A stretch of 64,000 nt of DNA, taken from the NCBI RefSeq assembly GCF_009687865.1, contig NZ_BLAE01000015.1, positions 1 through 64,000 on the forward strand, read 5' to 3'. Shown here one piece after another: positions 10,725 through 62,918 of the stretch (positions are counted from its first letter, which is position 1; every line of letters starts with the position of its first letter). Made by a program: the position numbers and the translations under genes. Source of the stretch: Acrocarpospora macrocephala (lineage in GTDB: Bacteria; Actinomycetota; Actinomycetes; Streptosporangiales; Streptosporangiaceae). A model generated the notes under the pieces. The model saw only the letters and a program-made list of their open reading frames with translations, ran no database searches and was not told the origin of the DNA.

Positions 10725-10733
10725 GCTCGCGGC

Positions 10734-33859: not shown

Positions 33860-33868
33860 CGAATCCCC

Positions 33869-35083: not shown

Positions 35084-35094
35084 CGTTTCTCCAG

Positions 35095-48261: not shown

Positions 48262-48272
48262 AGCATGAAGAC

Positions 48273-48291
48273 CCTCGGGTTCATCCCGAGG
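48273..48291 (+). terminator. hairpin after the recombinase trio
   Basis: 7-bp perfect stem cctcggg / cccgagg with a 5-nt loop, 12 bp after the third gene's stop. It adjoins the group II intron 3' end and could also belong to it. Confidence 0.45.
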
Positions 48292-48337
48292 AACCTTCAG
48301 TTCGCCCGAACTCTGGGGAAACCCCCGGCCTCTCGCA

Positions 48338-48371
48338 GAACCGGACGTAAACCTCTCGGCTTATCCGGCTC
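48338..48371 (-). ncRNA. group II intron domain V
   Basis: 34 nt that fold as domain V: gagccggat... pairs with ...gtccggttc, and aagcc/ggttt closes a GAGA tetraloop. The catalytic AGC triad is in gAGCcgg. Length and shape match the family exactly. Confidence 0.65.
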
Positions 48372-48840
48372 CCATCGCCCAGCCGTCAGGACGCGCGTCG
48401 AGTCGCCAGTGCGCGAACAGGCGGGGAGATCGCCGAGCGATCTCGGCCAGCCATACCATCGCGCGCCGTTCCCGGCGTTTGAGCCGCTTGTATTTCCGGC
48501 ACGCCCAGCCCACCAGGAGGGTGTTGAGGTGCCGGAGGAAGGAGAGCAACCGGGACCGGTAGAAGCGCCCGTAATAGTTGATCCACCCCTGCACGATGCT
48601 GTTGAACATACGGGCAAGGTCGTCCAGAGACTTGTCACTGCGCCGGGACAGATGCCAGGAGCGGACCACCGCTCCCATCGCCTTCATCGCCTGCGTGCTG
48701 ACCGCGGGCAAGAACGACACGAAGTGCTTGCCGTACTTGTTCTTGGCCAGCCGGGGCCGGAACTCATACCCCAGGAACGTGAACCGGATGTGCTCATACG
48801 AGCCCATCCGATCGGCGTCCTTGCAGTAGACGATGCGGCC
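48361..48840 (-). pseudogene. group II intron maturase, C-terminal part
   Basis: Reading leftward: CGRIVYCKDADRMGSYEHIR, FTFLGYEFRPRLAKN, then the GIIM maturase region SIVQGWINYYGRFYRSRLLS and WACRKYKRLKRRERRAM. Only the last ~155 residues of a ~400-600-residue protein remain; the polymerase core with YADD is gone. Confidence 0.75.
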
Positions 48841-48883
48841 GCATAGCGTTCGTCGCAGAGGTCATGCAGGGAGATGTGACAGG

Positions 48884-48906
48884 CGCTGACGCGCTGGTCG
48901 TCAGCG
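48884..48906 (-). terminator. hairpin at the end of the tricarboxylate operon
   Basis: 8-bp perfect stem cgctgacg / cgtcagcg with a 7-nt loop, overlapping the stop codon of the citrate-synthase-like gene. Confidence 0.45.
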
Positions 48907-50091
48907 TGGGCAGTAGACGGAGTGGTAGATGCCGCGGACGGGGTTTTGGGCGTATTCCTCACCGGCGTGTGCGATCCATCCGGTAGATCGGGCGATTGCG
49001 AAGATCGCCTCGGCCGCGCCCGGCACCATCTGGCCGACGTTCGCCAGTACGGTCAGGACGAATCCGATGTTCGGGGGCGGCAGGCTCGAAAGCGGTGCGC
49101 GGTGCAACGCTGAGTTCACGGGGTCCAGAGCGTCGGGGTCGACGCCGGTGAGCAGGTTCAGGAGAATCCGGGCCCGTGGGTCGCCGTCCGGGTAGGACGC
49201 GTGACCGAAACCGGGGACAGGCTCCCCCGTGCGCGGGCGATAGGGGTCGGCCGCGGACCGGGCGCCGTCCAGCAGCGCCGACAGCCCCAGGACCGTCGCG
49301 CTCTTGACGGGGCCGCCGTTGATGTCGAGACCGAGGCGGACGATGCCGGAGATACCGACGCCGGCCCGGGCCGCCATACGGACGACCCGCGTCGACTCCG
49401 GAAGATCATGGTCGGCGAGCAGGATGAGGGCGGCGTCCAGGACTCCGACCACCGCCGGAGTCGGCTCGCGGGAGCTGAGGCGCGACCACAGCATGGACGC
49501 GAACCGGCTCTCGTCACCCGGCCCCTTGCCGGACGCATGAGGCAGCGCGCGTACGGCGGTGGTCAGGAACTCGGCCGCATAGCGGCGGCTGTCGGCGGAC
49601 CAGCCTTCACCCCGAGGCGGCTTCAGCATCGAGCCCGCACAGGCGGCGGTCATCCGGAGACGATCGAGCGGAGTCGCGTCCGCCGGCAGCACGCGGGCCG
49701 CCGCGCGGCACTTTTCCACCAGATCGGCGTCCGCCTCCCAGGGCCCTGCGCTCTCGTTCTCCTCGTCGTCCCACAAGGTGAGCGCAACCTGTTCGAATGA
49801 GGAGTCGCGGACCAAGGTCGAGACCTCATGGCTGCGGTAGTAGAGGCAGCCGTTCTTGATCAGTGTGATCGCGGACTCCACCGGCCGGGGGATGTACGAG
49901 CGCCGCCAGGCCGTGAGGCTGGCGAGGTGCTCCACGTCGTCGGCGCGCACCTCGCTGCCCCGGCCACTGGTGGACCTGCGGCTGCGCAGGCGGCCACGGC
50001 TCACGTACGAATAGACCGTTTCTCGCTTGATGCCGAGCCGCTGGCACGTCTCCTCCATGGTCAGCCACTCACCGTCGATCGTCTTCGCCAC
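48901..50091 (-). CDS. HTH/citrate-synthase-like protein with missing catalytic residues
   Basis: 396 residues from the GTG at 50091 (GGAGGGA upstream). Residues 8-50 are an excisionase/MerR-type helix-turn-helix: WLTMEETCQRLGIKRETVYS and YVSRGRLRSRRS. The rest aligns with actinomycete citrate synthase/citryl-CoA lyase-like proteins: LLADHDLPESTRVVRMAARA, VPGFGHASYPDGDPRA and ARSTGWIAHAGEEY. Of the three citrate synthase catalytic residues only His297 (FGHAS) remains; the first His (GPLHG) reads GPVKS with Lys263, and the Asp (PNVDF) reads PNIGF with Gly343. It is the last gene of the operon. A regulatory or altered lyase role is likelier than citrate synthesis. Confidence 0.75.
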   Translation of the reverse strand: MAKTIDGEWLTMEETCQRLGIKRETVYSYVSRGRLRSRRSTSGRGSEVRADDVEHLASLTAWRRSYIPRPVESAITLIKNGCLYYRSHEVSTLVRDSSFEQVALTLWDDEENESAGPWEADADLVEKCRAAARVLPADATPLDRLRMTAACAGSMLKPPRGEGWSADSRRYAAEFLTTAVRALPHASGKGPGDESRFASMLWSRLSSREPTPAVVGVLDAALILLADHDLPESTRVVRMAARAGVGISGIVRLGLDINGGPVKSATVLGLSALLDGARSAADPYRPRTGEPVPGFGHASYPDGDPRARILLNLLTGVDPDALDPVNSALHRAPLSSLPPPNIGFVLTVLANVGQMVPGAAEAIFAIARSTGWIAHAGEEYAQNPVRGIYHSVYCPR

Positions 50092-50157
50092 TGCGACTCC
50101 CTCCTCCATATCGAGTCAGCGGGGCTGGCCGCGTTCCAATCGAACGGGAGGTCCGGG

Positions 50158-50676
50158 TCAGCTCGCCGCGGCGCGGGGGGCGATGAGGCCGCGGCGCTCA
50201 AGCAACTCGATGACGCCCCCGCCGAGCATGATCTCAAGGGGGGTGTCCGCCGCCGGAGTCACCGGAAGGACGTTGCCGTCACGATGGTTGGTCACGGTCC
50301 AGTCATCGATGTCCACGGTGATCGAGTCGCCTTCCTGGACCAGGCTGGAGATGCCAGGACACTCGAACGCGGGGAGGCCGAAGTTCATGGCGGTACGGTG
50401 AAAGAGCGTGTTGATCGATTCGGCGACGACCACGCCGATCCCGCACGTGCGGAGGGAGAGCGCGGCCGGGCGGGACGAGCCGATTCCGAAGTTGTGTCCC
50501 GCGACGAGCGCGTCGCCCTGCTTGACCTCGTCCACCCAGCCGGGGCGATTGGCGGAGAAGACCACTTTCGCGCGGTCCGCTGGGGACCGCCAGAGGTAGG
50601 GTCCCGGCAGCATCAGATCAGTGTCCATGTTGTCGCCGAACACCCAGGTGCGGGCGGTGAACTGAGCCCTGGCCAT
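50158..50676 (-). CDS. aconitase/isopropylmalate-isomerase-type small subunit
   Basis: 172 residues, the swivel domain: ARTWVFGDNMDTDLMLPGPY, VAGHNFGIGSSRPAALSLRT (substrate-binding GxGSSR loop, here GIGSSR) and NTLFHRTAMNFGLPAFECPG. It pairs with the large subunit encoded 3 bp upstream. Enzymes of this two-subunit type isomerise isopropylmalate, homoaconitate, methylcitrate or citramalate/citraconate. No leucine genes are nearby, so a catabolic substrate is likely. Confidence 0.85.
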   Translation of the reverse strand: MARAQFTARTWVFGDNMDTDLMLPGPYLWRSPADRAKVVFSANRPGWVDEVKQGDALVAGHNFGIGSSRPAALSLRTCGIGVVVAESINTLFHRTAMNFGLPAFECPGISSLVQEGDSITVDIDDWTVTNHRDGNVLPVTPAADTPLEIMLGGGVIELLERRGLIAPRAAAS

Positions 50677-50679
50677 GTT

Positions 50680-51957
50680 TCAGTCCCTCTCGAAGTAGCC
50701 GGAGGCGCGCGCGATACGCCCCTCGATGGCCGACGCGGCGACGGTCGCCGGAGACGCCATGTAGATCTGCGCGCTCGACGCGCCCATCCGCCCCTTGAAG
50801 TTGCGGGTGCTGGCGGTGATGCAGACCTCGTCCGGGGCCAGGACGCCGAGGTTGCCACCGAAGCACGCGCCGCAGGTCGCCGGGGTCACAATCGCTCCGG
50901 CATCCATCAGAACCTCGACGATCCCCGAACGCACGGCCGCGAGGTAGACCGCCTGGCTCCCTGGAGTGACGATCAGGCGGGTGCCCGGCGCGACCTTGCG
51001 GCCACGCAGCACCTGCGCGGCGGCCTCGAGGTCGTCGAGCATGCCGTTGGCGCAGGACCCGATGAACGCCTGGTCGATCCTGCGGCCCTCGACCTCGGCG
51101 ATCGCCACCGTCTGGTTGAGCACCCCGTCCGGCAGGGCGACGAGCGGTTCCACGGCGCCGAGGTCGATCTCACGGCGCGCCACGTAGCGGGCATCGGGGT
51201 CCGGCATCGTCGGACGGGGCACGGCCCCGGGATTCCGCTCGGCGAGGTAGCCGAGCATCAGGTCGTCCGGTTCGAAGACGCTGAAATTGGCCGAGAGCTC
51301 CGTGCCCATCGTCGCGATCGTCCTGCGGGCGTTCATGTTCAGTGACGCGATACCGGGCCCGCCGTATTCGATGTTCTGGCCGGTGTGCGCGCCCCAGCGG
51401 CCCGCGATCATCAAGAAGACGTCCTTGGCGGAGACTCCGGGGCGGAGGCTGCCGTGCAGGTCATAGCGTACGGTTTCACCGGCGACGAACCAGGTCTGTC
51501 CCGTCACCGCGGTGTAGACCATGTCAGGTCGCCCGACCGCGATCGCGGCGCAGTTGAACGCGCCGAGAGCGCAGGCGTGGGAGTCACTGTTGACCAGCAC
51601 GGTTCCCGGGATGGCGTAGCCGTTCTCGGCGACGATGACATGGGAGATGCCCTGGTCCGCGCCGACGTCGTGTAGTCGTGTGATTCCGAAGCGGGCGGCG
51701 AACTGCCTGGCGAGACGGTGGGCTTGCGCCGTCATCTCGGTGTTCGCGGGTACCAGATGATCGAGGACGATGGCGATCCGCTCGGGATGCCGGACACTGA
51801 TCACGTCGTCCCAGCGCTCTTCGGAAAGCCTGGCCGGCTGGAACGTGGAGTCGAGCATCACGATGGTCTCCACGTCCACCGTCACCGTGTCGCCGGCTCT
51901 GACTTCCTGCACCCCCGCGGAACTCGCGAGGATCTTCTCGGTCATCGTCATGCCCAT
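50680..51957 (-). CDS. aconitase/isopropylmalate-isomerase-type large subunit
   Basis: 425 residues from the ATG at 51957; AGGAAG ends 9 nt before it, while a GTG at 51966 abuts that site and cannot be used. VLDHLVPANTEMTAQAHRLA, VNSDSHACALGAFNCAAIAV, and the three iron-sulfur cysteines in FIGSCANG and TPATCGACFGG are present. So it should carry a 4Fe-4S cluster and dehydrate/hydrate a hydroxy-di- or tricarboxylate. A perfect operator-like palindrome lies 38 bp upstream, inside the operon, after the marR gene. Confidence 0.85.
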   Translation of the reverse strand: MGMTMTEKILASSAGVQEVRAGDTVTVDVETIVMLDSTFQPARLSEERWDDVISVRHPERIAIVLDHLVPANTEMTAQAHRLARQFAARFGITRLHDVGADQGISHVIVAENGYAIPGTVLVNSDSHACALGAFNCAAIAVGRPDMVYTAVTGQTWFVAGETVRYDLHGSLRPGVSAKDVFLMIAGRWGAHTGQNIEYGGPGIASLNMNARRTIATMGTELSANFSVFEPDDLMLGYLAERNPGAVPRPTMPDPDARYVARREIDLGAVEPLVALPDGVLNQTVAIAEVEGRRIDQAFIGSCANGMLDDLEAAAQVLRGRKVAPGTRLIVTPGSQAVYLAAVRSGIVEVLMDAGAIVTPATCGACFGGNLGVLAPDEVCITASTRNFKGRMGASSAQIYMASPATVAASAIEGRIARASGYFERD

Positions 51958-51994
51958 TGGCGTCACTTCCTGTCAGTAAATCGAAGTCGATCTC

Positions 51995-52023
51995 AATTTA
52001 CTTGTCATGACGACAAGTAAATT
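51995..52023. promoter_or_regulatory. probable MarR operator before the aconitase-type genes
   Basis: Arms aatttacttgtc / gacaagtaaatt are perfectly inverted over 12 bp with a 5-bp spacer (atgac). It lies in an AT-rich 117-bp gap between marR and the large-subunit gene. The AT-rich, symmetric form fits a MarR-family site. It gives the aconitase - citrate-synthase-like part its own control point. Confidence 0.7.
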
Positions 52024-52074
52024 TAGCATGCTTATGCCACCGTTGACCAGCATGTTCTCGCCGGTGAGCGGGGC

Positions 52075-52548
52075 TTAGATCTCGCCGTACGCCTTGACGC
52101 GGTCGACGAATTCGCGAAGAGTCTCGTGGAGGAGTCTGCGCCGGTCGCCCGGCATGTCGGCGGCGGCTCGCTCGATTACCGTGCCCTGAAGCACGCGCAT
52201 CGTCGCGAACAGCGACTGGCCCTTGGGAGTGACGCGGACCAGGATCTGACGGGCGTCGCCGCCGCTTCTCCCGCGAACGACCAGACCCTCGGCGACGAGC
52301 CGGTCGACCAGCCTGCTGACGGAGGACGGCGAAAGGCCCATACCCTGGCCGAGCTGGGTCTGAGTCCGGGGGCCGTGCCGAAGTCGGCGCAGCATCCGAG
52401 CCTGAACCAAGGTGATGTTGGCGCGCTGCTCCAATTCGTACTGGAACGGCTCGATCAGAGTTACCGCGTCCAGATAGACCCGGAGCAGGTCCCTGCTGGT
52501 GAGCTCGCCCTCGGCCGGCTCCGACATGACCGAATCATACGTCGTCAC
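52075..52548 (-). CDS. MarR-family transcriptional regulator
   Basis: 157 residues with a winged helix: ITLVQARMLRRLRHGPRTQT, QLGQGMGLSPSSVSRLVDRL, and the wing VVRGRSGGDARQILVRVTPK. Encoded between the CoA-ester lyase gene (21 bp upstream) and the aconitase-type genes; the palindrome at 51995-52023 is the probable target. The inducer is likely a pathway acid or CoA ester, as for many MarR proteins of acid catabolism. Confidence 0.85.
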   Translation of the reverse strand: MTTYDSVMSEPAEGELTSRDLLRVYLDAVTLIEPFQYELEQRANITLVQARMLRRLRHGPRTQTQLGQGMGLSPSSVSRLVDRLVAEGLVVRGRSGGDARQILVRVTPKGQSLFATMRVLQGTVIERAAADMPGDRRRLLHETLREFVDRVKAYGEI

Positions 52549-52569
52549 GCCTCGACCCCCATCGCAGGC

Positions 52570-53370
52570 TCAGGCCGGTGTGGCACGGCCGAGCCTGAGC
52601 AGGTTGCGGGCTCGCTCCGCGACGGGCGCGTCGACGAAGTCACCGGCGGGCGTCCGGGTGGCCGCCTGACCGGCCGCGTCGAAGGCCCGTACGATCTCGC
52701 GGGCGTGCGCGAGTTGCGACTCGGACGGGGTGAAGACCTCGTTGATGACGTCGACCTGACCGGGGTGGACGGCCACCTTGCCGAAGAACCCCAGTTCGCG
52801 GGCCGCGACGGCCTCCCGGCGCAGCGCGTCCAGATCCCGGATGGCCGCGAAGGCGCTGTCGACGGGGGGCACGGCCCCGGCCGCGCTCGACGCCATGACG
52901 ACCTGGCTTCGCGCCAGGAGCATGGACTCCCAGCCCGTTCCCGACCTCAGATCCCTGCTCAGGTCCTGGATACCCATCGAGAGCCCCGCGACGCCGGGCG
53001 CCGCCGCGATCTCCCGAGCGGCCAGCACGCCACGTGCGCTCTCCAGGATCGGGTGGAGCCGAGCGTCCGGCGCGCGGGCGGCGACCCAGGCCAGATCCTC
53101 GGCCGACTCGACCTTGGGGACCTTGATGTCCGCGCAGAGACCACCAATGGCTTCGAGGTCCCGCTCGGCCTGCTCGGTCCGCACCGCGTTGATGCGGACG
53201 TACGCGGGGCGGCGCCCGAGCACCTCGGCGACGAGCTTGCGCGCCTCGGCCTTGCGCTCCGGCGGGACCGCGTCCTCCAGGTCGAGGATGACCGCGTCCG
53301 CGCCGCAGTCGAAGACCTTCCCGAGCAGCTTCGCCGAATGTCCCGGCGCGTAGAGATAACTTCGATGCAC
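52570..53370 (-). CDS. HpcH/HpaI (CitE-like) CoA-ester lyase
   Basis: 266 residues from the GTG at 53370, chosen because GGGAG lies 8 nt upstream; a TTG 6 nt earlier is too close to it. RSYLYAPGHSAKLLGKVFDC, AVILDLEDAVPPERKAEARK (metal Asp/Glu region), YVRINAV (substrate Arg) and LHPILESARGVLAAREIAAA with a metal Glu; AVHPGQVDVIN near the end. It is the CitE-like fold that cleaves citramalyl-CoA, malyl-CoA or related esters to acetyl-CoA or pyruvate parts. With the adjacent hydratases and CoA-transferase it completes a dicarboxylate degradation triad. Confidence 0.85.
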   Translation of the reverse strand: MHRSYLYAPGHSAKLLGKVFDCGADAVILDLEDAVPPERKAEARKLVAEVLGRRPAYVRINAVRTEQAERDLEAIGGLCADIKVPKVESAEDLAWVAARAPDARLHPILESARGVLAAREIAAAPGVAGLSMGIQDLSRDLRSGTGWESMLLARSQVVMASSAAGAVPPVDSAFAAIRDLDALRREAVAARELGFFGKVAVHPGQVDVINEVFTPSESQLAHAREIVRAFDAAGQAATRTPAGDFVDAPVAERARNLLRLGRATPA

Positions 53371-53386
53371 GGCCAACGCTCCCGTC

Positions 53387-53818
53387 TCAGAGCACGTCGA
53401 CGGAGGCCGTGCCGGCCATGACGACGGTGCCCTCCCCCGTCACGCAGCTGACCGCGAGCTGGACCCGGCTGCCGGGCGCGCTCTTCGCCAGCCCCGTGAC
53501 CTCGACGCGTCCGGTGATCGTGGCACCCGGCCTGACCGGGGCGAGGTAGGCGACGGAAAGAGCGCCGCTGGTCAGCCAGGAGCGGGGAAAATGGCGAAGC
53601 AACAGATCGTCGACAAGGGCCAGGGCGAAGGGGCCGGAGGCGATCGGCCCGCCGTACTCGCTCTTTCCGGCGAAGTCGCCGCTGTAGTGGATCGGGTTCC
53701 GGAAACCCAGCGTGTCGGTGTACTCGACCATCAGGTCCTGGGTGATCTCGCGGGACGTTCCCTCGATCACGGTCTCGGCCTCGCTCTCGTTCGTCGTTGT
53801 GTCTGCGGTGACGGCCAT
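53387..53818 (-). CDS. MaoC-like dehydratase, subunit 1
   Basis: 143 residues from the ATG at 53818 (GAAGGA upstream). TDTLGFRNPIHYSGDFAGKS has the MaoC/hydratase-2 motif with the catalytic His after the proline (NPIH, Asp/Asn position Asn); ALSVAYLAPVRPGATITGRV is the hot-dog core. It should hydrate an enoyl-CoA. It lies 11 bp downstream of a second MaoC-type gene; the two probably form a heteromer. Confidence 0.8.
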   Translation of the reverse strand: MAVTADTTTNESEAETVIEGTSREITQDLMVEYTDTLGFRNPIHYSGDFAGKSEYGGPIASGPFALALVDDLLLRHFPRSWLTSGALSVAYLAPVRPGATITGRVEVTGLAKSAPGSRVQLAVSCVTGEGTVVMAGTASVDVL

Positions 53819-53829
53819 AGTGAAATCCT

Positions 53830-54285
53830 TCAGCTCGGCCAGATACGGGTCCGGCGTCCCCAGATGACCGGGCTCCCGACGTTCCTGGTGGTCTGCGAGT
53901 CCATGACCACGTACAGGCGCCCGCGCTTCTCGTACTTGGCGTGCACGGTGGTCCGGGTGGTCAGGGTGTCGCCGACGTAGCACGGTCCCTGCATCCGGAG
54001 CTCCTGCTTGGCGTACACCCCGCCGGGAGGCAGCAGCACGCCAGGGACCGCCGCGACGAACTGGTAGGCGGCGGCATACGCCGGCGGCATCACCGCCTGC
54101 TCGTGCCCGCTCGCCCGGGCGGCCTCGGAGTCGACGGCGACCGGTGCGGTGTAGGCGAGAATGCGAATGACGTCGCGGTAGCGCTCTGGGGTGAGCTCGA
54201 ACTCGGCCACGAACTCCTGGCCGATCGTGAAGTCGTCGTAGTGGTGGACCTTGCTTTCGGCCGGAATGGCCGTCGGGGTGTTCAC
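53830..54285 (-). CDS. MaoC-like dehydratase, subunit 2 (N-terminal-domain type)
   Basis: 151 residues. VHHYDDFTIGQEFVAEFELT, YRDVIRILAYTAPVAVDSEA, VMPPAYAAAYQFVAAVPGVL and LRMQGPCYVGDTLTTRTTVH resemble the N-terminal hot-dog unit of split hydratases (MaoC_dehydrat_N type). The catalytic His is not evident here, consistent with a structural partner for subunit 1. GGAAGG precedes the GTG at 54285. Confidence 0.75.
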   Translation of the reverse strand: MNTPTAIPAESKVHHYDDFTIGQEFVAEFELTPERYRDVIRILAYTAPVAVDSEAARASGHEQAVMPPAYAAAYQFVAAVPGVLLPPGGVYAKQELRMQGPCYVGDTLTTRTTVHAKYEKRGRLYVVMDSQTTRNVGSPVIWGRRTRIWPS

Positions 54286-54331
54286 AGGTGGGGATCCTTC
54301 CTGCTCGTCTCTTGTCGTTTGTTCGCGGAGC

Positions 54332-55603
54332 TCAGTCCGCCGCGTGGACGGTGCCGTCGGCGATCAGCTGATCGATCTCCTTCGCGCCCAGACCGAGAGA
54401 GCCGAGGATCGCCCTCGAGTGCTGGCCCAGGTCAGGAGCGCCGACGCGGACCCGAGCCGGGGTCCGGTCCATGGTGAACGGTGGGGCGAGTTGCCGGATC
54501 GGGCCGGCAACCGGGTGGTCGGCATGCGTGGTGAGCTTCGAGTGGATGGCCTGCGGATCCTCCAGGGCCTCGGCGATGGTGTTCACCGGACCGCAGGGGC
54601 AACCCGCACGGTTCAGCGCGTCGATCCACTCCGCCGCGCTCTTCGTGATCAGCACGTCCTCAAGAGCGGAGATCAGCTCGCGGCGGTGCGCGACCCTGCC
54701 CCCGTTGTCGCGGAAACGCTCGTCCGCGATCAGCTCGGGCTTGCCGATCGTCGTGCACAGGCGGGCGAAGGAGCGGTCGTTGCCGCACGCGAGCAACATC
54801 GGGCCGTCGCCAGCTCTGACCAGCTGGTACGGGGCCAGCACACGGTGCGCGGAGCCGTTCGGGTTGGCCACTTGCCCAGTCGCCCACAGGTATGCGGTCT
54901 CGGTGACGGTGAAGGCGAGCCCGGCACGCAGGAGCGACGTCGCCACCCGTTGGCCCAGGCCGGTACGGGTCCGCTCATGCAGGGCGGAGAGGATGGCGAT
55001 ACAGGCCAGCATCCCGGCACCGAGATCGGTCAGCGGGACTCCGATCTTGGCCAGTTCGCCGTCCTCGGAGCCGGTCATGCTCATCAGTCCTGTGGCGCCC
55101 TGGGCCACGAGGTCGAAGCCGGGGCGGTCGCTCGACGGGCCGTCCTCGCCGAACCCGGTGATCGAGCAGTAGATGATTCCCGGGTTCCGTGCCTTCAGCG
55201 CGTTGTAGCCCAGGCCGAGCCTGTCCATCACCCCAGGCCGGAAGTTCTCCAGGACCACGTCCGCCCCCGCGACAAGGTCGAGGAACAGGGTACGGCCGTC
55301 GCCGGTGCGGATGTCCAGTGCCAGACTGCGCTTGTTCCGGTTCACCGCGTGGAACTGCGGAGAGGATCCCGCGATGGAGACGGTGCCGGCGCTGCGCACG
55401 TCATCGCCGCCGCGGGGGCGCTCGACCTTGATCACATCTGCCCCAAGGTCGCCCAGCAGGGCTCCGGCGTACGGACCGGACAGGATCTGGGTGCAGTCGA
55501 GGACGCGGACCCCGCTGAGGGCCCCGTCCGGGAAAGCCGCTGTGTTCAAGGTGAAGTCGTCTCCTTCGGACGCATCGGTGCCGGTGAACTCGGCTGCCAT
55601 CAC
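54332..55603 (-). CDS. type III CoA-transferase (CaiB/BaiF) of the tricarboxylate operon
   Basis: 423 residues. GVRVLDCTQILSGPYAGALL, GDLGADVIKVERPRGGDDVR, VVLENFRPGVMDRLGLGYN, and GFGEDGPSSDRPGFDLVAQG, which keeps the catalytic Asp (PGFD), unlike the two CoA-transferases of the island. It should move CoA from succinyl-CoA or similar to the imported acid. The start overlaps the TPP-enzyme stop (GTGA). Confidence 0.85.
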   Translation of the reverse strand: MMAAEFTGTDASEGDDFTLNTAAFPDGALSGVRVLDCTQILSGPYAGALLGDLGADVIKVERPRGGDDVRSAGTVSIAGSSPQFHAVNRNKRSLALDIRTGDGRTLFLDLVAGADVVLENFRPGVMDRLGLGYNALKARNPGIIYCSITGFGEDGPSSDRPGFDLVAQGATGLMSMTGSEDGELAKIGVPLTDLGAGMLACIAILSALHERTRTGLGQRVATSLLRAGLAFTVTETAYLWATGQVANPNGSAHRVLAPYQLVRAGDGPMLLACGNDRSFARLCTTIGKPELIADERFRDNGGRVAHRRELISALEDVLITKSAAEWIDALNRAGCPCGPVNTIAEALEDPQAIHSKLTTHADHPVAGPIRQLAPPFTMDRTPARVRVGAPDLGQHSRAILGSLGLGAKEIDQLIADGTVHAAD

Positions 55604-57243
55604 GAGGCCCGCAGGTCGCGAAGCTCCGACAGCCGGGCGGCCGGCGTGATCAGGTCGGGGTCGAGGACGGCGTCGATGATCGTGACCCCGCCCTCGTGGT
55701 GGCCGAGCCGCAACGCGTCAGCGAGCGCGCCGCCGTCGTCCACGCGGATGCCTCTGGCCCCGAAGGCGCGGGCGTACTGCGACAGATCGACGTCGCCGAT
55801 CGCGGTCGCTGCGGGCTTGACGCCCCGCAGCGCCTGATGCATGGCGATGGTCCCGTGGAGGCCGTTTCGCATCACGAGCACGGTGAGCGACAGGTTCTCA
55901 CGGACCGCTGTTTCGATCTCCTGGCCGGTCATCAGAAAACCACCGTCGCCCACGACGCTGATCACGTGCCGGCCGGTCGTCGCCAGCGCACCGGCGACGC
56001 CGGCCGGCACCGCGTACCCCATCGCGCCGTTCGTCGGCGCGAGCTGGCTGCGCGGGTGATCGAAGGTCCAGAAGCGATGCAGAGATGCGGCGAAATTGCC
56101 CGCGTCGCTGGCCACAATGGTGTCGCGTGGCAACACCGCCGTCATGGTCGCGACGACCTCCACCGGATCCAGACCCACCGACGCCCGGCTCGGCGCGGGG
56201 CGGGTGGACGCCACGAACGCCGACCGCTCCACGTCCCAGTCGCGCGGCGTCGCCGGTCCGCCGAGGCGCCGGAGCGCCCGCACCGTCTGCCCGACGTCCG
56301 CGACCACGGCGAGATCGAGCGCGGCATGGGCGGCCAGCGTGGCCGGCTCGGTGTCGACCTGGCAGACGTAGCTGGTCGGCGCTGGGAGCGTGAACCGCTG
56401 GCTGGTCACCTCGGTCAGCCGGGTTCCTAGCACGAGGACGACATCGGCGCTCCGCAGGGCCGCCAAGGTGCTGGGGACCGGCGCCAGACCGAGGTGGCCC
56501 AGGTAGTTGGGGTGGTTGTTGGGAAAGGCATCTTGACGCCGGAACCCGGTGTAAACCCCTACCCCGAACTCCGCGGCGAACCCGACGAGGTCGTCGCGGC
56601 AGGCCACGGCGCCTTCGCCCACGATGGCCACCGGCGCGTGCGCCTGCCGGAGCCTGGCGGCCAGTGCGGACATGGATTCCGGATCCGGGGCACCCGGGGA
56701 TGTGGCCGGCACGGGCAGCGAGCTGATCGTCGCGAATTCGGCGTCCAACACGTCCTGCGGGACGGTGATCGCCACCGGCCCCGGGCAGCCGGACGTCGCG
56801 ACGCGAAGCGCGTACGAGGTCAGCTCGTCGAGCCGGTCCCCCCGGGTGGCCCGCAGGGCCATCTTGGTGATCGGAGCGTACATCGTGGCGAGATCGACCT
56901 CTTGGAACGCGCCGCGATAGCTCAGGTCGGTCTCGACGTCGCCAAGGACCACCAGCATCGCGGTGGAACCCTCGTGCGCGGTGTGCACGCCGATCGACAG
57001 GTTGCAGGCACCGGGCCCGCGGGTCGCCATCGCGACCGCGGGTGCCCCGGTGAGTCTTGCGTCCGCCTCCGCCATGAACGACGCCCCCGACTCGTGCCGG
57101 GTGGAGATCAGCTGGATCTCGTCATGATTGTCCGCTGCCTCCAGGAGCGGCAGAAAACTCTCGCCGGGCACTGTGTAACAACGCCGCACCCCGTGTGCGG
57201 CCATGGCTTCCACCATGGCGGCACCGGCATTCTTCTTCGTCAA
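55600..57243 (-). CDS. thiamine-diphosphate-dependent enzyme (acetolactate synthase-like)
   Basis: 547 residues from a TTG at 57243 with GGAG at 6-nt spacing. The N-terminal domain has VRRCYTVPGESFLPLLEAA and the cofactor Glu in ISTRHESGASFMAEADARL; the C-terminal domain has SVVGDGGFLMTGQEIETAVR with the Mg-binding Asp and Asn (RNGLHGTI). It belongs to the broad acetolactate synthase/benzoylformate decarboxylase/oxalyl-CoA decarboxylase group. In this operon a 2-oxoacid or acyl-CoA decarboxylation is plausible, for example of a pyruvate-derived product. No regulatory subunit gene is near. Confidence 0.8.
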   Translation of the reverse strand: MTKKNAGAAMVEAMAAHGVRRCYTVPGESFLPLLEAADNHDEIQLISTRHESGASFMAEADARLTGAPAVAMATRGPGACNLSIGVHTAHEGSTAMLVVLGDVETDLSYRGAFQEVDLATMYAPITKMALRATRGDRLDELTSYALRVATSGCPGPVAITVPQDVLDAEFATISSLPVPATSPGAPDPESMSALAARLRQAHAPVAIVGEGAVACRDDLVGFAAEFGVGVYTGFRRQDAFPNNHPNYLGHLGLAPVPSTLAALRSADVVLVLGTRLTEVTSQRFTLPAPTSYVCQVDTEPATLAAHAALDLAVVADVGQTVRALRRLGGPATPRDWDVERSAFVASTRPAPSRASVGLDPVEVVATMTAVLPRDTIVASDAGNFAASLHRFWTFDHPRSQLAPTNGAMGYAVPAGVAGALATTGRHVISVVGDGGFLMTGQEIETAVRENLSLTVLVMRNGLHGTIAMHQALRGVKPAATAIGDVDLSQYARAFGARGIRVDDGGALADALRLGHHEGGVTIIDAVLDPDLITPAARLSELRDLRAS

Positions 57244-57280
57244 TTCATCTCCAGAAAGTCCGTTGCCGACTGCGCGACGG

Positions 57281-58831
57281 CTAGTTGGCCGACATCACGA
57301 TGGGTTGTTCCGCCGGTCCCGCCGGTCCGTCGTCAGAGGTGCGGTGGCGTCGCCTGCGCAGTGCGGGCATGATCAACTGGAGGACCAGGATGGCGAGCAC
57401 GACGATCACCACGATGAGACTGAAGGGCCGTTCGACAAAGATCAGCAGGGATCCGCTGGAGATGAGCAGGGACTGGCGGATCGCCGACTCCGCCAGCGGG
57501 CCGAGCACCATGGCGATCACCGTAAGAGCCGGCGAGTAGCCGTTGACACGCATGAAGAAGCCGATGACGCCGAACACGTACATGATCAAGACGTCGGCCA
57601 CGCTGGTATGCGAAAGGTAGGCGCCGACGGTGGCGATGACGACGACGATCGGCCCGATGTACTTGAAGTGCACCCGGACCACCCGGGCAAGCAGCGGAAT
57701 ACCGGCGATACAGATGATCAGCAGGACCACGTTGCCCAGGTACATGCTCGCGATCACCCCCCAGGCGAACTCGGGGTTCTCTCGCATCAGCAGCGGGCCA
57801 GGCTGTAGCCCAACCACCAGGAACGCGCTGAGCAGGACCGCGGTCGCGGCCGAACCTGGAATCCCGAGGCTCAGCAGCGGCATCATCGCGCCTGACGTCG
57901 CGGCGTTATGCGCTGCCTCCGGCGCGGCGAGCCCCTCGACCGCACCCTTTCCGAAGCGCTCCGGACGCTTCGATACGGACTTCTCGATCGAGTAGGCGCT
58001 CAACGACGCGACGGTCGCGCCGGCCCCGGGCATGGCGCCGAGCGCGAAGCCGATGAGCGTCCCGCGCAGGGTGGCGAACCGCGAGGATTCGACCTCCTCC
58101 CTGCTTGGGCGGAAGGTCAGCTTCGGAAGCGCGGCTGCCGCCTCAGGCCCTTTGCGGTGCTGGCCGGTGTAGATCGAGTAGAGCACCTCGCCGATGGCGA
58201 AAAGGCCGACCGTCACCGGGACCATGTCGATTCCGCCGAGCAGGAGCGGGTTACCGAAGGTGAAGCGCGACTGCCCGGTGACGAGGTCGATCCCGACGGT
58301 GGCGATGGCGAAGCCGAAGAGCGCCGAGAGCAGGCCTTTGATCTTGTCGTCCCCCACGATTCCGGTCATCAGCGCGAGTGCCAGGATCACCAGCATGAAG
58401 AACTCGGGCGGTCCGAGTGAGCCGGCCAGACGCGACCCGATCGGCGCGAGGAGGCACAGCAGTACGAGGCCGAGCGTGCCGCCGAGGAACGAGGTCACGG
58501 CGTGGATGACCAGTGCCTGCCCTGCGCGGCCGCGTGCGGCCATCGGGTAGCCGTCGAAGGAGGATGCCACCGCGTTGTCGTGGCCGGGCATGTTGATGAG
58601 AATGGCGCTGACGCTGCCGCCGTACATCGCCCCGTAGTAGACGGCCGCCAGCATGGCGATGGCCGGGAGCGGGTCAAGTGTGAACGCCAGCGGAAAGAGC
58701 AGGACCATTCCGGCGATCGAGCCGAGGCCCGGGATCAGCCCGATCATCATGCCCACCATCACACCGATGGCGAGGTAGCCGAGATTGGCCCAGGTCAGCA
58801 CGTCGGAGAAGCCGTGCAGAAGGTTAGACAT
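57281..58831 (-). CDS. tctA: tripartite tricarboxylate transporter, large membrane subunit
   Basis: 516 residues, about 11-12 membrane segments. LGYLAIGVMVGMMIGLIPGL opens with the TctA motif G..G.IPG.G, MLAAVYYGAMYGGSVSAILI and NMPGHDNAVASSFDGYPMAA are the conserved substrate-loop region, and GIPGSAATAVLLSAFLVVGL is the repeat half. It forms the channel of a Tct importer with TctB and TctC for citrate-like or dicarboxylic acids. AGGATCC precedes the ATG. Confidence 0.9.
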   Translation of the reverse strand: MSNLLHGFSDVLTWANLGYLAIGVMVGMMIGLIPGLGSIAGMVLLFPLAFTLDPLPAIAMLAAVYYGAMYGGSVSAILINMPGHDNAVASSFDGYPMAARGRAGQALVIHAVTSFLGGTLGLVLLCLLAPIGSRLAGSLGPPEFFMLVILALALMTGIVGDDKIKGLLSALFGFAIATVGIDLVTGQSRFTFGNPLLLGGIDMVPVTVGLFAIGEVLYSIYTGQHRKGPEAAAALPKLTFRPSREEVESSRFATLRGTLIGFALGAMPGAGATVASLSAYSIEKSVSKRPERFGKGAVEGLAAPEAAHNAATSGAMMPLLSLGIPGSAATAVLLSAFLVVGLQPGPLLMRENPEFAWGVIASMYLGNVVLLIICIAGIPLLARVVRVHFKYIGPIVVVIATVGAYLSHTSVADVLIMYVFGVIGFFMRVNGYSPALTVIAMVLGPLAESAIRQSLLISSGSLLIFVERPFSLIVVIVVLAILVLQLIMPALRRRRHRTSDDGPAGPAEQPIVMSAN

Positions 58832-58895
58832 GTGGATCCTAAGGAACCGCGCGGGCGGTGGAATCGAAGTTCGGCTCGGTGCGGCGGCCGCGAGC

Positions 58896-59396
58896 CTAGA
58901 AGGAGATCAAGGCGCCGTTCGTCAGGGCGTTGAGCCCGAACACGATCACGATCGGGATCGGCAGGACGATCAGTATCGACCTGATCCGTCGTTCGCTGAC
59001 CAGGAACATCACCGCGGCGACGCAGAACAGGATCGTGGCGATGAGAACGCCGGCGGTGAAGAACAGGACGATATAGCCGAGGGCGAGCGCGGCCAGTACG
59101 GCGCAGTCCCTGGCGTGGACGCGCGCCGTGCCGGAAGCTTCCTGCCCGGCGGACTGGTCCGAGCGGGCTCGGAGCAGTTCCTTGACCAGGCCGGCCAGCG
59201 CGAAAGCCGAGAAGAGCACACCGAGAATGAGCGGGAAGAAACCCGCGCCAGGCTGGTCGTCAGCCCAGAAAACAAGCGTCGTACTGAGCAGCGTGTAGGT
59301 CACCGCGACGGCAAGGACCACCCCGGGGAAGATCGCCCGCAGACGGCGGCGTGACGGCCCTATCCGCCGCACCGGGTCCGTTTCCGGCGCCGCCAT
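58896..59396 (-). CDS. tctB: tripartite tricarboxylate transporter, small membrane subunit
   Basis: 166 residues with four membrane segments: AIFPGVVLAVAVTYTLLSTT, GAGFFPLILGVLFSAFALAG, CAVLAALALGYIVLFFTAGV and ILIVLPIPIVIVFGLNALTN. The F-P.ILG motif is typical of TctB. Its start lies next to the tctC stop, and tctA follows after 64 bp. Confidence 0.85.
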   Translation of the reverse strand: MAAPETDPVRRIGPSRRRLRAIFPGVVLAVAVTYTLLSTTLVFWADDQPGAGFFPLILGVLFSAFALAGLVKELLRARSDQSAGQEASGTARVHARDCAVLAALALGYIVLFFTAGVLIATILFCVAAVMFLVSERRIRSILIVLPIPIVIVFGLNALTNGALISF

Positions 59397-59397
59397 C

Positions 59398-60414
59398 TCA
59401 GAGCACCCCCGCCTTTGTGAGAACGGTCTGGTAGGTCGTCTTCAACTCGGTGATTCGGGTGCCGAAGTCAGCGGCGTAGGCCTGTTCCGATGTCACAAAT
59501 CTGGCCGACAGGTATTCCTTCCATTCCGGCGTCTGCGCGATGAATTTCATCATGTCGACCCAATAGGTCTGCACCTTCGGGTCAGTCTTCGGCGGCAGCA
59601 CGATTCCGCGGGGAGCGTAGGCGTCGACGGCACCATAGCCGGCTTCGGTGACGGTGGGGACGTCCGGGATTTGAGGTAGGCGACGTGGTCCGCCGAAGAC
59701 AAGCGCCCGGATATCACCGGATCGCAATTGCCCGCTGATTTCACCGGGGTTTGTCACTATCGCTTCGAGGCTGTCCGACAGCAAGCCGGTGGTCAGCGTT
59801 CCTGACGTTTCGAAGGGGACGAAGTTGGTCTTGCATCCGGCCGCGCCGCACAACTCCTGGGTAAAAATGAATGCTGCGGAGACCTTACTCGTGCCACCCA
59901 CGGAAAGGGCTGACTTACGGGCCGCGGAGAGGAAGTCGTCAAGCGTCTTGTAGGGGGAGTCACGTTTGACCGCAAGGACGTAGTCGTCCCGTCCCATCAG
60001 TGCGACCGGCGTGAAGTCGGTGATGCTCCACACGGTGTCGGCCTGCAGTGGAACCGTGATCGTGCTGCTTACGGTCGGGCTGAGCACGTACGGATTTCCC
60101 GCGCTCTGGTAGAGCTTCGTGTAGCCGGTCGCACCGCTTCCGCCCTCGACGTTGTCGACCTCCATGGGCTGCGGATATTTGCCGTACTTGTTGATGATAT
60201 TGACCATCGTCCGGACCATGAGGTCGGCGCCGCTGCTGGAGCCGTATGGGACGAGCCACTGAAGTTTCTTGGAGGGGTAATTGTCCGGATTGGCAGCTGT
60301 GCTGTCGGGTACGCCGCAGGAGGTCACCGCCACGATTCCGAGAAGAACAACCGGAAGCGCCTTCGAAGATCGGGACACGACGCTATTTTTGATGCGATTG
60401 ATTGATGACTTCAT
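59398..60414 (-). CDS. tctC: tripartite tricarboxylate transporter substrate-binding lipoprotein
   Basis: 338 residues. A lipoprotein signal ends in VTSCGVPDS. The mature protein has KLQWLVPYGSSSGADLMVRT and the Bug/TctC core: VWSITDFTPVALMGRDDYVL, GGTSKVSAAFIFTQELCGA, VPTVTEAGYGAVDAYAPRGI. Its Cys pair (CGAAGCK) is less usual. It binds the acid outside the membrane and presents it to TctAB. First gene of the roughly 11.5-kb leftward operon. Confidence 0.85.
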   Translation of the reverse strand: MKSSINRIKNSVVSRSSKALPVVLLGIVAVTSCGVPDSTAANPDNYPSKKLQWLVPYGSSSGADLMVRTMVNIINKYGKYPQPMEVDNVEGGSGATGYTKLYQSAGNPYVLSPTVSSTITVPLQADTVWSITDFTPVALMGRDDYVLAVKRDSPYKTLDDFLSAARKSALSVGGTSKVSAAFIFTQELCGAAGCKTNFVPFETSGTLTTGLLSDSLEAIVTNPGEISGQLRSGDIRALVFGGPRRLPQIPDVPTVTEAGYGAVDAYAPRGIVLPPKTDPKVQTYWVDMMKFIAQTPEWKEYLSARFVTSEQAYAADFGTRITELKTTYQTVLTKAGVL

Positions 60415-60569
60415 ATAACTGATCTTTCCTTCCAGTGCTCAGCCAATTTGCGGCCGCATTCCGGTGAGCGGCATAAAATCCGCCTGGACGGCCTCGTTTG
60501 AATTCGGGCCTTAGTGCCACTCACCGGGCCTGGAAACATATGGTGTTACCAACAAGTGAACGGGTCAAG

Positions 60570-60588
60570 ATTGATCGGCGCAATCAAT
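60570..60588. promoter_or_regulatory. inverted repeat upstream of tctC
   Basis: attgat cggcgca atcaat: 6-bp perfect arms, 7-bp spacer, next to the candidate -35 of the operon. It differs from the MarR palindrome at 51995-52023, so a second regulator may act here. Confidence 0.35.
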
Positions 60589-60927
60589 GTTTCGCCACTC
60601 TAACACCACGCCTAGACGAATGGTGATCAACGATGTGGGGCTTCGCGGTGGCCCGGGGTCATCCCTGCCTCCCCGCGAGACGGCGGGTCCGCCGTGACAA
60701 CGCCTCAGCTACGTGCGGCCAGGGCCGTCGCGGAGCCGGTCGGCCAACCTGGAATTTCCGGTTACTCGGTCCGGCCTAGCGATCACGGACCGCCCACACG
60801 ATGCCGGCGCACGCGTTCGAACGGGACTGGTGCGCCGTCGTTTCGTTCGGACTTGGGACGAGCGCGATGCTCTCGTCGGCGAGCAGTGGCGTTCAGCGCG
60901 TTCCAGGTCGAGGTCCCGCGGCGAGAA

Positions 60928-60958
60928 GTCCCTCGCGATCTTCCAAGACGCGAGGGAC
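60928..60958 (-). terminator. hairpin downstream of the CocE/NonD hydrolase gene
   Basis: 10-bp perfect stem gtccctcgcg / cgcgagggac, 11-nt loop, about 77 bp after the hydrolase stop on the minus strand. Confidence 0.5.
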
Positions 60959-61034
60959 CTCCGCCCAGACATACGCGGGTACAAACCCCCGGATGGTGTT
61001 ATTCAAAAGTTCGCCCCTGATGGCGTACGGCGCG

Positions 61035-62918
61035 TCACGGCAATGAAGGCAGTCCGCCACCTGTCTGGAGCGACCGAGATGGCAGCATCGGTAGGTTGAG
61101 CCGAGAGTCGAACACCACATTATGCTGCACGTCGTACACGCCATTTTCCAGCGTGCTCAGCTGTGGCTCGTTCGGGAAGGCGCAGGTGGAGACACCCGGA
61201 TCCCGACAAGTGTTCAGGTCCGACTGAGTTGTCAGAACCAGTCGCAGCCGGTGTCCGGGCTTCAGCGCAAACATCCGGGCATTGAACTGGATGTCGTACC
61301 GGGTGACTTTTCCAGGTACGACGGGCACCGCTTGCGTGTAGGTCTGGAATGGCCTGATGCTATCGCCATTCGCGTCGAACCACGATCTGGTGTGGTCGAC
61401 CGTGCGCATCGAGCCGATCATCGCACCCATGGTGAGCCGCGCCGTGGTTCCGTCTGGAGCGACGTCGAATAGTTCCGCGATAAGTTCCAGATTCGCGTTG
61501 CTCGAACTGGCGTAGATGGTCGCGACAGGCGATCCGACGAGGGTGACGCCATGAGTCAGCGGGTCGCTCGTGTATTGAAGGACGGCACCGGTCTGTGGTG
61601 CAGCCCAAGCGATACGGTCACTTCCCGCCGCAGGCCTTGGCTTGGACTTGGTCAGCCTGCCATCTGAGTTAAGATACAAAGGTTTGTAGTCGGTAACCGT
61701 CGGATAGCGAGATGGCGCATCGACCCACCGATCTGTGCCCATCTCGTAGAGGTGGACAGGTGTCGCAGTCTCACTGAGACCGTCGCCAATGCCCTTCAGC
61801 CAGAAATCGAACCACGCGAGGACCGCCGGGTCGTTCGCGAATGCGCAATGGCGCTCGGGACCCATAATCAACTGGTACCGCGGTGTCGCCTGCCGGCCAG
61901 GACGCATCGGGGCCCAGACATCCCTGCCCGCCGCAGCGTTCTGGAGCATCGAATATGTCTCGACTGAGCTCGAACTGTAGTACTCGTCGTACCAGGACGA
62001 CCTGATCAATACGGGAATTCCGCTCCTCACGACGTCTTCGATGACATAGGCAGGCTCGCGCTCCTGCCACCATTGCCGGTTGAATGAGCGATCTCCGCCG
62101 GTGTCGAGTTCCGCACCGACTTGCAGTCCCAACTCGGCGGCCGAGGCACTGCCGGCAAGTGCCCCCCAACCTGCGATCAGCGTCCGCACGGTGCCGTTTG
62201 GCATCCCCCCGAAGAACTCCGCCTGGCGATACAGGAACCCGCCGGCGCCGGTCGGCACCATGGCCTTCACCGGCGAGCCGGGGCCGAGCCTCGCAGCGGT
62301 GAAGTACTGGTTCAAGCCCATGTATGAGCAACCGGCGAGCCCGACCGAGCCATTGGACTCGGCGAGGCGGGAGGCCCAGTAAACGAAGTCAACGCCGTCT
62401 TGCTTCTCTCGATCACAGAGGAAGCAGTTCACACCGCCGGCCCCCCACGAGCCGCGGGCCTGCCCGACGACGTATATGTAACCGCGGGATACCAGAAAGC
62501 GTTGGTACGCGACTGGATCCGGCGCCCGGCGGGCTGCGGGGTTATACGGGGTTACCTCGACCAGCACCGGAAACTTTCCCTGCGCCCGCTGCCCGGTGCT
62601 CGAGTTCGTCGGGTACCAGATATCCGCATAGAGAACGACCCCGTCGCTCATCTCTACTGGAACGTCGGTTTGGTACCCAACCCCGTACTGCTCTGGACGC
62701 GGCTGGGGATCACCTGCCACCCGAGAGTCGGCCGCGCGAGTGGCCGCCCCGTTCTCGGGAGCAAGAGCGCTCCCCATGGCGTTGGCCGGGACCGCCATGA
62801 TGGCGGACATCGTCAGCAGAAGGGCTACGAGGCATAACCTCGTGCGGCGCCCACGCCGAGCCGCCCGTCTCGGCCGTTTCGCGTTGTTTCCTATGACCTC
62901 GAACTCGATCATTGGCAC
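61035..62918 (-). CDS. secreted CocE/NonD-family hydrolase (X-Pro dipeptidyl-peptidase S15 type)
   Basis: 627 residues from the GTG at 62918 (AGGAA at 6-nt spacing). A signal peptide spans about residues 26-47 (LVALLLTMSAIMAVPANA). SDGVVLYADIWYPTNSS opens the hydrolase domain; nucleophile Ser198 in LAGCSYMGLNQ, Asp in IRSSWYDEYY, and His in MGPERHCAFA complete the triad. The C-terminal jelly-roll (X-PepX_C) includes PGKVTRYDIQFNARMFALKP and GHRLRLVLTTQSD. Exported esterase/acyl peptidase; the substrate is unknown, but it could release an acid that the Tct system imports. Transcribed alone. Confidence 0.85.
   Translation of the reverse strand: MPMIEFEVIGNNAKRPRRAARRGRRTRLCLVALLLTMSAIMAVPANAMGSALAPENGAATRAADSRVAGDPQPRPEQYGVGYQTDVPVEMSDGVVLYADIWYPTNSSTGQRAQGKFPVLVEVTPYNPAARRAPDPVAYQRFLVSRGYIYVVGQARGSWGAGGVNCFLCDREKQDGVDFVYWASRLAESNGSVGLAGCSYMGLNQYFTAARLGPGSPVKAMVPTGAGGFLYRQAEFFGGMPNGTVRTLIAGWGALAGSASAAELGLQVGAELDTGGDRSFNRQWWQEREPAYVIEDVVRSGIPVLIRSSWYDEYYSSSSVETYSMLQNAAAGRDVWAPMRPGRQATPRYQLIMGPERHCAFANDPAVLAWFDFWLKGIGDGLSETATPVHLYEMGTDRWVDAPSRYPTVTDYKPLYLNSDGRLTKSKPRPAAGSDRIAWAAPQTGAVLQYTSDPLTHGVTLVGSPVATIYASSSNANLELIAELFDVAPDGTTARLTMGAMIGSMRTVDHTRSWFDANGDSIRPFQTYTQAVPVVPGKVTRYDIQFNARMFALKPGHRLRLVLTTQSDLNTCRDPGVSTCAFPNEPQLSTLENGVYDVQHNVVFDSRLNLPMLPSRSLQTGGGLPSLP

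Follow-up and report, generated by a model that had tools for sequence, protein, structure and literature searches.

The window analyzed here comprises the first 64,000 nucleotides (nt) of contig NZ_BLAE01000015.1 from the actinomycete Acrocarpospora macrocephala (assembly GCF_009687865.1). At positions 48901-60414 it contains twelve consecutive open reading frames (ORFs), all on the minus strand, which encode a tripartite tricarboxylate (Tct) transporter, enzymes for coenzyme A (CoA) transfer, hydration, and carbon-carbon cleavage, a thiamine-pyrophosphate (TPP) enzyme, and two candidate regulators. The set probably represents a self-regulated catabolic operon for a branched dicarboxylic or tricarboxylic acid. 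The gene order, the protein families, the residues kept or missing, the clade membership, and the inverted repeat described below are features of the sequence itself. The enzyme families are all known, and it is their combination that is unusual.

Gene layout and transporter

Every product of the twelve ORFs has a Pfam match above the curated cut-off, and all twelve genes are recovered by a codon-score gene caller trained on the window itself. A preliminary description of the stretch had recognized the twelve-gene leftward run with its short gaps and overlaps, which the ORFs, Pfam, and the gene caller confirm. Its list of functions covered ten of the genes and overlooked two, a MarR-family regulator and a protein joining a helix-turn-helix (HTH) and a citrate-synthase domain. 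The distances between neighbors, read from tctC to the HTH/citrate-synthase gene, are 1, 64, 37, -4, 46, 11, 10, 21, 108, 3, and 48 nt. The two MaoC ORFs seem to overlap only because of the choice of start codon; by codon scoring, the second gene starts at about 53818, 11 nt past the end of the first. The G+C content of the window is near 0.69 and dips to 0.61 over 60001-62000. A promoter scan gives one sigma-70 site against 1.0 expected, and eight terminator-like sites against 4.8 expected.

The run begins with the transporter genes. The solute-binding protein TctC (59398-60414; PF03401, 8e-27) has a Cys after a hydrophobic leader and is lipoprotein-like. It is followed by the small permease subunit TctB (58896-59396; PF07331, 5e-12) and the large permease subunit TctA (57281-58831; PF01970, 2e-144). 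The three adjacent genes, all above the Pfam cut-offs, constitute a complete tripartite tricarboxylate transporter.

CoA-transferase and CitE-type lyase

The class III (CaiB/BaiF) CoA-transferase is encoded at 54332-55603 (PF02515, 3e-130), and its ORF overlaps that of the TPP enzyme by 4 nt. Its top two NCBIfam models are those for succinate-glutarate (326.5 bits, cut-off 750) and succinyl-CoA:mesaconate (277.1 bits, cut-off 700) CoA-transferases, and chains of succinate-hydroxymethylglutarate CoA-transferase rank third and fourth among the solved structures. Its substrate is probably some dicarboxylate, as in both of these best models. Two adjacent ORFs elsewhere in the window, at 32552-35374, also match the profile of CoA-transferase family III.

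The CoA-ester lyase (52570-53376; PF03328, 4e-33) is of the CitE/RipC type. Its best curated model is RipC (NF038242), the lyase of itaconate degradation, with 161.9 bits of a 375-bit cut-off, and the second model, TIGR01588 citE, lies 27.6 bits behind. For comparison, the lyase from a CaiB-MaoC-CitE operon of Salipiger (locus L097) scores 141.6 with the RipC model. Among solved chains, 3qll reaches 132 bits, 8khl 120, and 6aq4, which we take to be the mycobacterial bifunctional enzyme, 96. The alignment to 3qll and 8khl spans the full length, and the ES.RG, G..D, and C-terminal Asp segments, whose residues are presumably functional, are retained.

The closest relatives of the lyase in plasmid records are five Rhodococcus proteins with 54.9, 51.6, 51.6, 49.2, and 51.2% identity. 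On the Rhodococcus plasmid loci L094 and L095, the lyase gene lies directly behind a CoA-transferase gene and no MaoC is annotated in those stretches. Such CoA-transferase/lyase pairs suggest that a CitE-type lyase may act on a CoA-activated hydroxy acid without a hydratase.

Split MaoC pair

The putative hydratase is split into an N-type hot-dog subunit (MaoCN, FAS1_DH_region; 53830-54285; PF13452, 2e-12) and a MaoC subunit (53387-53818 with the start set by codon scoring; PF01575, 3e-14). The Pfam hot-dog domains are present, though the classical Asp and His motif of (R)-specific MaoC enzymes is incomplete. The MaoC subunit reads GFRNPIHYS, in which the His is retained and Phe stands where AF1124 (GDLNPVH) and 1q6w (ADFFPLH) have Asp. 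The MaoCN subunit reads YTAPVAVD and has neither the Asp nor the His in a weak alignment to 5cpg (E 0.02).

The preliminary description had placed the MaoC hydratase in the logic of itaconate, mesaconate, and citramalate degradation. An assignment of the pair to the usual itaconyl- or mesaconyl-CoA hydratases finds no backing in a comparison with the one-chain hydratase of the Salipiger operon, which is not a proven Ich enzyme and whose operon has an inferred substrate: the best E-value against MaoCN is 0.25-0.32, which is not significant, and no match is reported for MaoC. The Salipiger hydratase, with the motif NGHRIHYD, likewise lacks the classical Asp, so the loss of Asp alone is no proof that the pair is inactive. 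On these sequence grounds the MaoC pair is the least certain step of the operon.

Relatives of these enzymes were sought in genome samples at strict E-values, and in the large searches only a fraction of the candidates from the first look were scored (9 of 21 in one case), so relatives may be missed. Under these settings, the genome itself was the only match for CaiB among 296 genomes (E 1e-110), for CitE among 100 genomes (E 1e-55), and for MaoCN at the level of the order (249 genomes, E 1e-15) and of the phylum (396 genomes, E 1e-12). MaoCN also gave no match in plasmid records at 1e-5. A search of 200 genomes surrounding a Burkholderiales record (E 1e-10), which had no positive control, gave none either.

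LeuCD pair and the GSSRP clade

The aconitase-type enzyme of the preliminary description does belong to the aconitase superfamily, but it is a two-subunit pair rather than a single enzyme. The LeuC-type large subunit is encoded at 50680-51966 (PF00330, 5e-84) and the LeuD-type small subunit at 50158-50676 (TIGR02087, 4e-38, above cut-off). The marks of LeuCD-type hydratases are present, namely the three Cys ligands of the [4Fe-4S] cluster in LeuC (positions 305, 365, and 368, conserved in 96, 97, and 97 of 97 aligned rows) and a GSSR motif in LeuD. The traits of the isopropylmalate isomerase of the leucine pathway are missing: LeuD reads GSSRPAA, which is shorter by one residue than the GSSRE(H/S/Q)A found in three solved enzymes, and no leuB-like protein is found in the window by profile. 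A further LeuC match of this genome lies on contig C25.

The 21-member clade that contains the operon LeuC, 19 GSSRP sequences, and L017 has a FastTree local support of 0.999. Gene neighborhoods were counted at 92 LeuC loci, of which 19 have GSSRP, 56 have GSSRE, and 17 have no scored motif. A methylisocitrate-lyase-type gene is near LeuC at 14 of 19 GSSRP loci, 5 of 56 GSSRE loci, and 5 of 17 unscored loci. MmgE/PrpD occurs at 9 of 19, none of 56, and 1 of 17, and leuB at 1 of 19, 33 of 56, and none of 17, respectively. These counts are lower bounds, because flank lengths differ between loci, and they are not blind, because seven of the eight seed proteins of the methylisocitrate-lyase profile come from counted GSSRP loci.

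The count leaves out L001-L010, L091, L092, and L108. Two of these, L001 and L108, represent the window itself; L002 and L005-L009 repeat larger loci; and L003 and L004 are the other LeuC match of the same genome. L010 was excluded though not a repeat; it has GSSRE, a methylisocitrate-lyase-type gene, and PrpD, and its inclusion would raise the GSSRE figure to 6 of 57. L017 is a clade member whose motif was not found on the translated frame, and it stands among the 17 unscored loci.

The methylisocitrate-lyase type lies beside LeuC by Pfam in five loci of relatives and within L016, where TctC genes also adjoin LeuCD, and by annotation in L099. No MmgE/PrpD or methylisocitrate-lyase-type protein is found by profile in the window and up to 15 kb beyond. 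Judged from sequence and neighborhood, the GSSRP clade of LeuCD is probably catabolic and would probably form or consume a malate-type hydroxy acid.

The module of GSSRP-type LeuCD and a methylisocitrate-lyase-type protein, often with MmgE/PrpD, recurs in actinobacterial, proteobacterial, and clostridial records (L125, L126, L127, L128, L135, L013, L016, L099, L100, L101, L018, L019, L021, and L022). It seems to be related to the 2-methylcitrate cycle or to the cleavage of dimethylmalate. The genome encodes another LeuC of the GSSRP type (L002/L125, G000:C13), which is 53% identical to that of the operon. Its aligned stretch has one in-frame TGA, which may precede the start codon, and the gene caller gives a 414-aa ORF. 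In L011, LeuCD is flanked by genes resembling a branched-chain amino-acid type ABC transporter, a resemblance read from the DNA with no search made.

TPP enzyme

The TPP enzyme (55600-57243; PF02776/PF00205/PF02775) is acetolactate-synthase-like. Its closest NCBIfam model is PRK08199 (511.7 bits, just under the 539 cut-off), and the RHE and GDG...N segments are retained. Its best solved relative is named BbmA, on which nothing useful was found among the matches listed in the open-licence literature. Relatives at 50-54% identity occur in 10 other genomes of 276, from another class of the phylum. Four of nine regions around these relatives, partly read with Pfam, are differing catabolic operons, containing Tct, aldolases, and dihydroxy-acid dehydratase (L172), parts of a 2-oxoacid dehydrogenase (L174), TRAP and mandelate-racemase type proteins (L175), or an epimerase and creatininase (L176).

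An oxalate-type pair of formyl-CoA transferase (CaiB) and oxalyl-CoA decarboxylase was considered because the TPP and CaiB ORFs overlap. It was rejected on the scores with solved chains, which are 129 bits for the best oxalyl-CoA decarboxylase and up to 203 bits for acetolactate synthases.

Candidate regulators and probable operator

The MarR-family regulator is encoded at 52075-52548 (PF12802, 2e-15). The 108-nt gap between its gene and leuC contains an inverted repeat (51992-52026) with 15-nt arms that are 93% complementary and a 5-nt spacer. Its length is reached in 2 of 500 shuffles of the gap stretch. Across the 64 kb, equally long repeats occur in 9 of 672 overlapping segments, two of which contain this same site, so the length by itself is not rare, and it is the position and uniqueness that count. 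With up to 3 mismatches allowed, the core has a single occurrence in the 12.1-Mb genome, and no copy lies before tctC. From these features, the repeat is a probable operator.

The last gene (48901-50109) encodes a fusion of an excisionase-type HTH (PF12728) and a citrate-synthase domain (PF00285). The catalytic positions of citrate synthase, which we take to be His, His, and Asp, are largely lost: compared with solved enzymes, the first His is replaced by Lys and the Asp by Gly, and the middle His is retained. Among 16 aligned fusion sequences (the window protein and 15 relatives), the first His is present in 12 and the second in 14, and at the third position 12 have Asp, 2 Glu, and 2 Gly. A missing first His and Asp beside a retained middle His is seen only in the window protein and a paralogue on contig C42 of the same genome. 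Active-site decay is not confined to this pair, because L121 and L123 lack both His.

The paralogue matches the fusion at 1.5e-84, and the next best of 100 relatives at 7e-59. At E 1e-60, only the fusion and the paralogue were found in 296 genomes of the phylum, which is partly a threshold matter because the next relative scores 7e-59. Plasmid-collection matches of the fusion come only from Embleya and Nonomuraea. Since two of three catalytic residues are lost, the fusion and its paralogue may be sensors, and such a role of the HTH/citrate-synthase protein is plausible from its residues. No description of a regulator made from an HTH/citrate-synthase fusion was found by title or abstract start among the few matching papers of the open-licence literature.

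The paralogue ends a second operon (L124, G000:C42:35000-54000, at 8684-18588), which contains MFS, MmgE/PrpD, a FAD-binding protein, two fused CoA-transferase domains, a ChsH2-like OB protein (zf-ChsH2), a thiolase-like protein, and an enoyl-CoA hydratase. In L130, L134, and L137, the fusion gene and a second citrate-synthase-like gene (377-397 aa) are divergently oriented.

Flanking regions

A CocE/NonD-type hydrolase (61035-62918) lies upstream on the same strand after a 620-nt gap; it is outside the operon count and was missed by the codon-score caller. Just left of the operon, on the plus strand at 45150-48846, are a tyrosine integrase, a small HTH protein, and proteins of 530 and 193 aa. 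The 530-aa protein has a distant integrase match (phrog_1, E 5e-12) and its 193-aa neighbor has no match. This stretch may be a mobile element or what remains of one. No tRNA is found in the window or as far as contig position 79000, and a profile search from the window end to the same position gives no more relatives of the operon enzymes.

Proposed pathway and alternatives

We infer the substrate, the order of the steps, all reactions, and the regulation from these features as follows. TctC would capture the acid and TctAB would bring it in. If a cis-unsaturated acid of the citraconate, alkylmaleate, or aconitate type is imported, LeuCD would hydrate it to a malate-type 2-hydroxy acid. The CoA-transferase would convert the hydroxy acid, or its unsaturated isomer, to a CoA ester, and the split MaoC pair would interconvert unsaturated and hydroxy CoA esters. 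The CitE-type lyase would then cleave the hydroxy ester (citramalyl-CoA type) into an acyl-CoA such as acetyl- or propionyl-CoA and a 2-oxo acid of the pyruvate type. The simplest role of the TPP enzyme would be to use or condense the 2-oxo acid that the lyase sets free. Control of the operon would lie with MarR, and possibly with the degenerate HTH/citrate synthase, in response to an intermediate that they sense, and a separate operator would stand ahead of leuCD. CoA transfer and CitE would stand in place of the methylisocitrate-lyase-type enzyme that probably serves many related LeuCD pairs.

In outline, CoA-dependent catabolism of a branched dicarboxylate or tricarboxylate is well supported. 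The more specific reading, in which the operon regulates itself and breaks down a branched C5-C6 di- or tricarboxylic acid, is given a probability of roughly 0.6, with C5 branched dicarboxylates favored over tricarboxylates as substrate. The general operon logic of the preliminary description is probably correct. Its coherent catabolic module holds for import, CoA transfer, and CitE-type cleavage, with RipC as the best lyase model and two dicarboxylate models best for the CoA-transferase, and it gains from a LeuCD whose clade has catabolic-looking neighbors.

Several observations weigh on the other side. Among the models shown, no equivalog reaches its cut-off, and therefore the substrate cannot be read off. 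The MaoC pair lacks the usual Asp, which makes its activity unsure. The CoA-transferases that partner the closest lyases are just about 31% (30.7-31.8%) identical to that of the operon. The nearest LeuC sequences, L011, L012, and L015 (local support 0.822), show no methylisocitrate-lyase-type gene, on contigs that end early on at least one side, and 7 of the 14 positive GSSRP loci seeded the profile for that gene. The neighborhood check proposed in the preliminary description, a search for the same gene order in other actinomycetes, found the whole set nowhere else in the genomes sampled, and thus there is no comparative proof that the twelve genes serve one pathway.

Among the alternatives, the narrower form of the preferred reading makes the substrate a tricarboxylate (citrate, aconitate, or an alkylcitrate), the LeuCD pair an aconitase, and the citrate-synthase domain a tricarboxylate sensor, with CoA transfer and CitE cleaving a citryl-CoA-type ester to an acyl-CoA and oxaloacetate or a homologue. 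MmgE/PrpD and a methylisocitrate-lyase-type gene together represent the logic of the 2-methylcitrate cycle, and their frequency at GSSRP loci (9 and 14 of 19) fits this view, as do the Tct transporter, the citrate-synthase-fold protein, and the second rank of citE among the lyase models. However, citE trails RipC by the 27.6 bits noted above, neither MmgE/PrpD nor a methylisocitrate-lyase-type protein is found by profile in the window and up to 15 kb beyond, and the citrate-synthase domain is short of two catalytic residues. We regard this reading as rather doubtful. A division into two adjacent modules with different substrates, tctCBA-TPP-CaiB-MaoC-MaoC-CitE-marR and leuCD-HTH/citrate synthase behind its own operator, is also unlikely. 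The largest gap and the inverted repeat lie exactly at this boundary and LeuCD relatives have other partners elsewhere, but the genes are on one strand, compact, and chemically complementary, and the operator may simply serve an internal promoter.

A pathway of itaconate degradation would take the CoA-transferase, hydratase, and lyase as its three steps, which are those laid out in PMC12290011; the class III transferase and RipC as the best lyase model agree with it. Moreover, the missing Asp of the MaoC pair is no argument against it, because the Salipiger hydratase also lacks this residue. On the other hand, the same paper singles out the hydratase and lyase as pathway-specific. The split pair is not significantly similar to the one-chain hydratase of Salipiger (whose substrate is itself inferred), and the lyase reaches 161.9 bits of 375. 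LeuCD would have no step in it. An itaconate cluster is not supported by the features tested and is distinctly improbable. Least probable, and in our view very much so, is a glutarate- or hydroxymethylglutarate (HMG)-type acid, with a succinate/glutarate or HMG CoA-transferase and a lyase acting on an HMG-CoA-type ester, comparable to the mycobacterial bifunctional enzyme for itaconate and leucine reported in PMC6689899. The succinate-glutarate model is the best for the transferase at 326.5 bits, and the third and fourth solved structures are of the HMG type. However, the transferase is far under the 750-bit cut-off, chain 6aq4 scores below both 3qll and 8khl, and LeuCD is left without explanation.

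Relation to known systems

The itaconate/methylsuccinate cluster of pseudomonads and Cupriavidus (Ict-Ich-Ccl with Mcd and MmgE/PrpD) shares with the operon a class III CoA-transferase, a hydratase, and a CitE-type lyase. In addition, according to PMC12290011, a tripartite tricarboxylate binding protein of unknown function is encoded near the itaconate genes of Cupriavidus necator, like the tctC of the operon. In contrast, the operon has a split hydratase of another kind, LeuCD, the TPP enzyme, MarR, and the HTH/citrate synthase, and neither an acyl-CoA dehydrogenase nor MmgE/PrpD is encoded by its twelve genes. PMC5592240 reports on a mesaconate CoA-transferase of class III and on a mesaconyl-CoA hydratase of the MaoC family.

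In nicotinate fermentation, DmdAB is a LeuCD-type dimethylmaleate hydratase that works with a 2,3-dimethylmalate lyase. This order of a LeuCD-type hydratase and a malate-type carbon-carbon lyase resembles that of the GSSRP pairs, many of which have a methylisocitrate-lyase-type gene nearby. However, cleavage in the operon would be CoA-dependent through CaiB and CitE, and no methylisocitrate-lyase-type gene is found by profile. The CaiB-CitE loci on the Rhodococcus plasmids R. opacus B4 pROB01 and Rhodococcus sp. DN22 p1, which hold the closest plasmid-record lyases directly behind a CoA-transferase, have SLC13 or MFS transporters instead, and the annotation of these stretches lists no MaoC, LeuCD, or Tct gene. 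The fusion protein shares the domain order of its family with 34-43% identity over the aligned part; 12 of 16 members keep the first His, which is replaced by Lys in the window protein and its paralogue, where Gly also takes the place of Asp.

The preliminary description knew of no described pathway with this exact set, and in agreement with this no paper on a cluster combining these genes was found in the open-licence literature, where one query was spelled 'MmgE PrpD' and was blind to the slash form. Likewise, among the matches listed there for dimethylmaleate hydratase, dimethylmalate lyase, or citraconate, no title describes such a cluster. For citraconate or maleate hydratase, the literature gave a single review (PMC8307300).

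Meaning of the operon

It is conceivable, and we offer it tentatively, that the fusion and its same-genome paralogue are transcription factors derived from a disabled citrate synthase, each ending a CoA-transferase operon and reporting a citramalyl- or citryl-type intermediate, and that the operon is a CoA-dependent replacement for the methylisocitrate-lyase-type cleavage probably used by related LeuCD. If true, this would be a small case of a central-metabolism enzyme turned gene regulator, open to testing. The clade marked by the GSSRP small subunit would be a recognizable, probably catabolic group of LeuCD, labelled 3-isopropylmalate dehydratase in some records. Moreover, the operon as a whole would add a rare bacterial route for branched di- and tricarboxylic acids.

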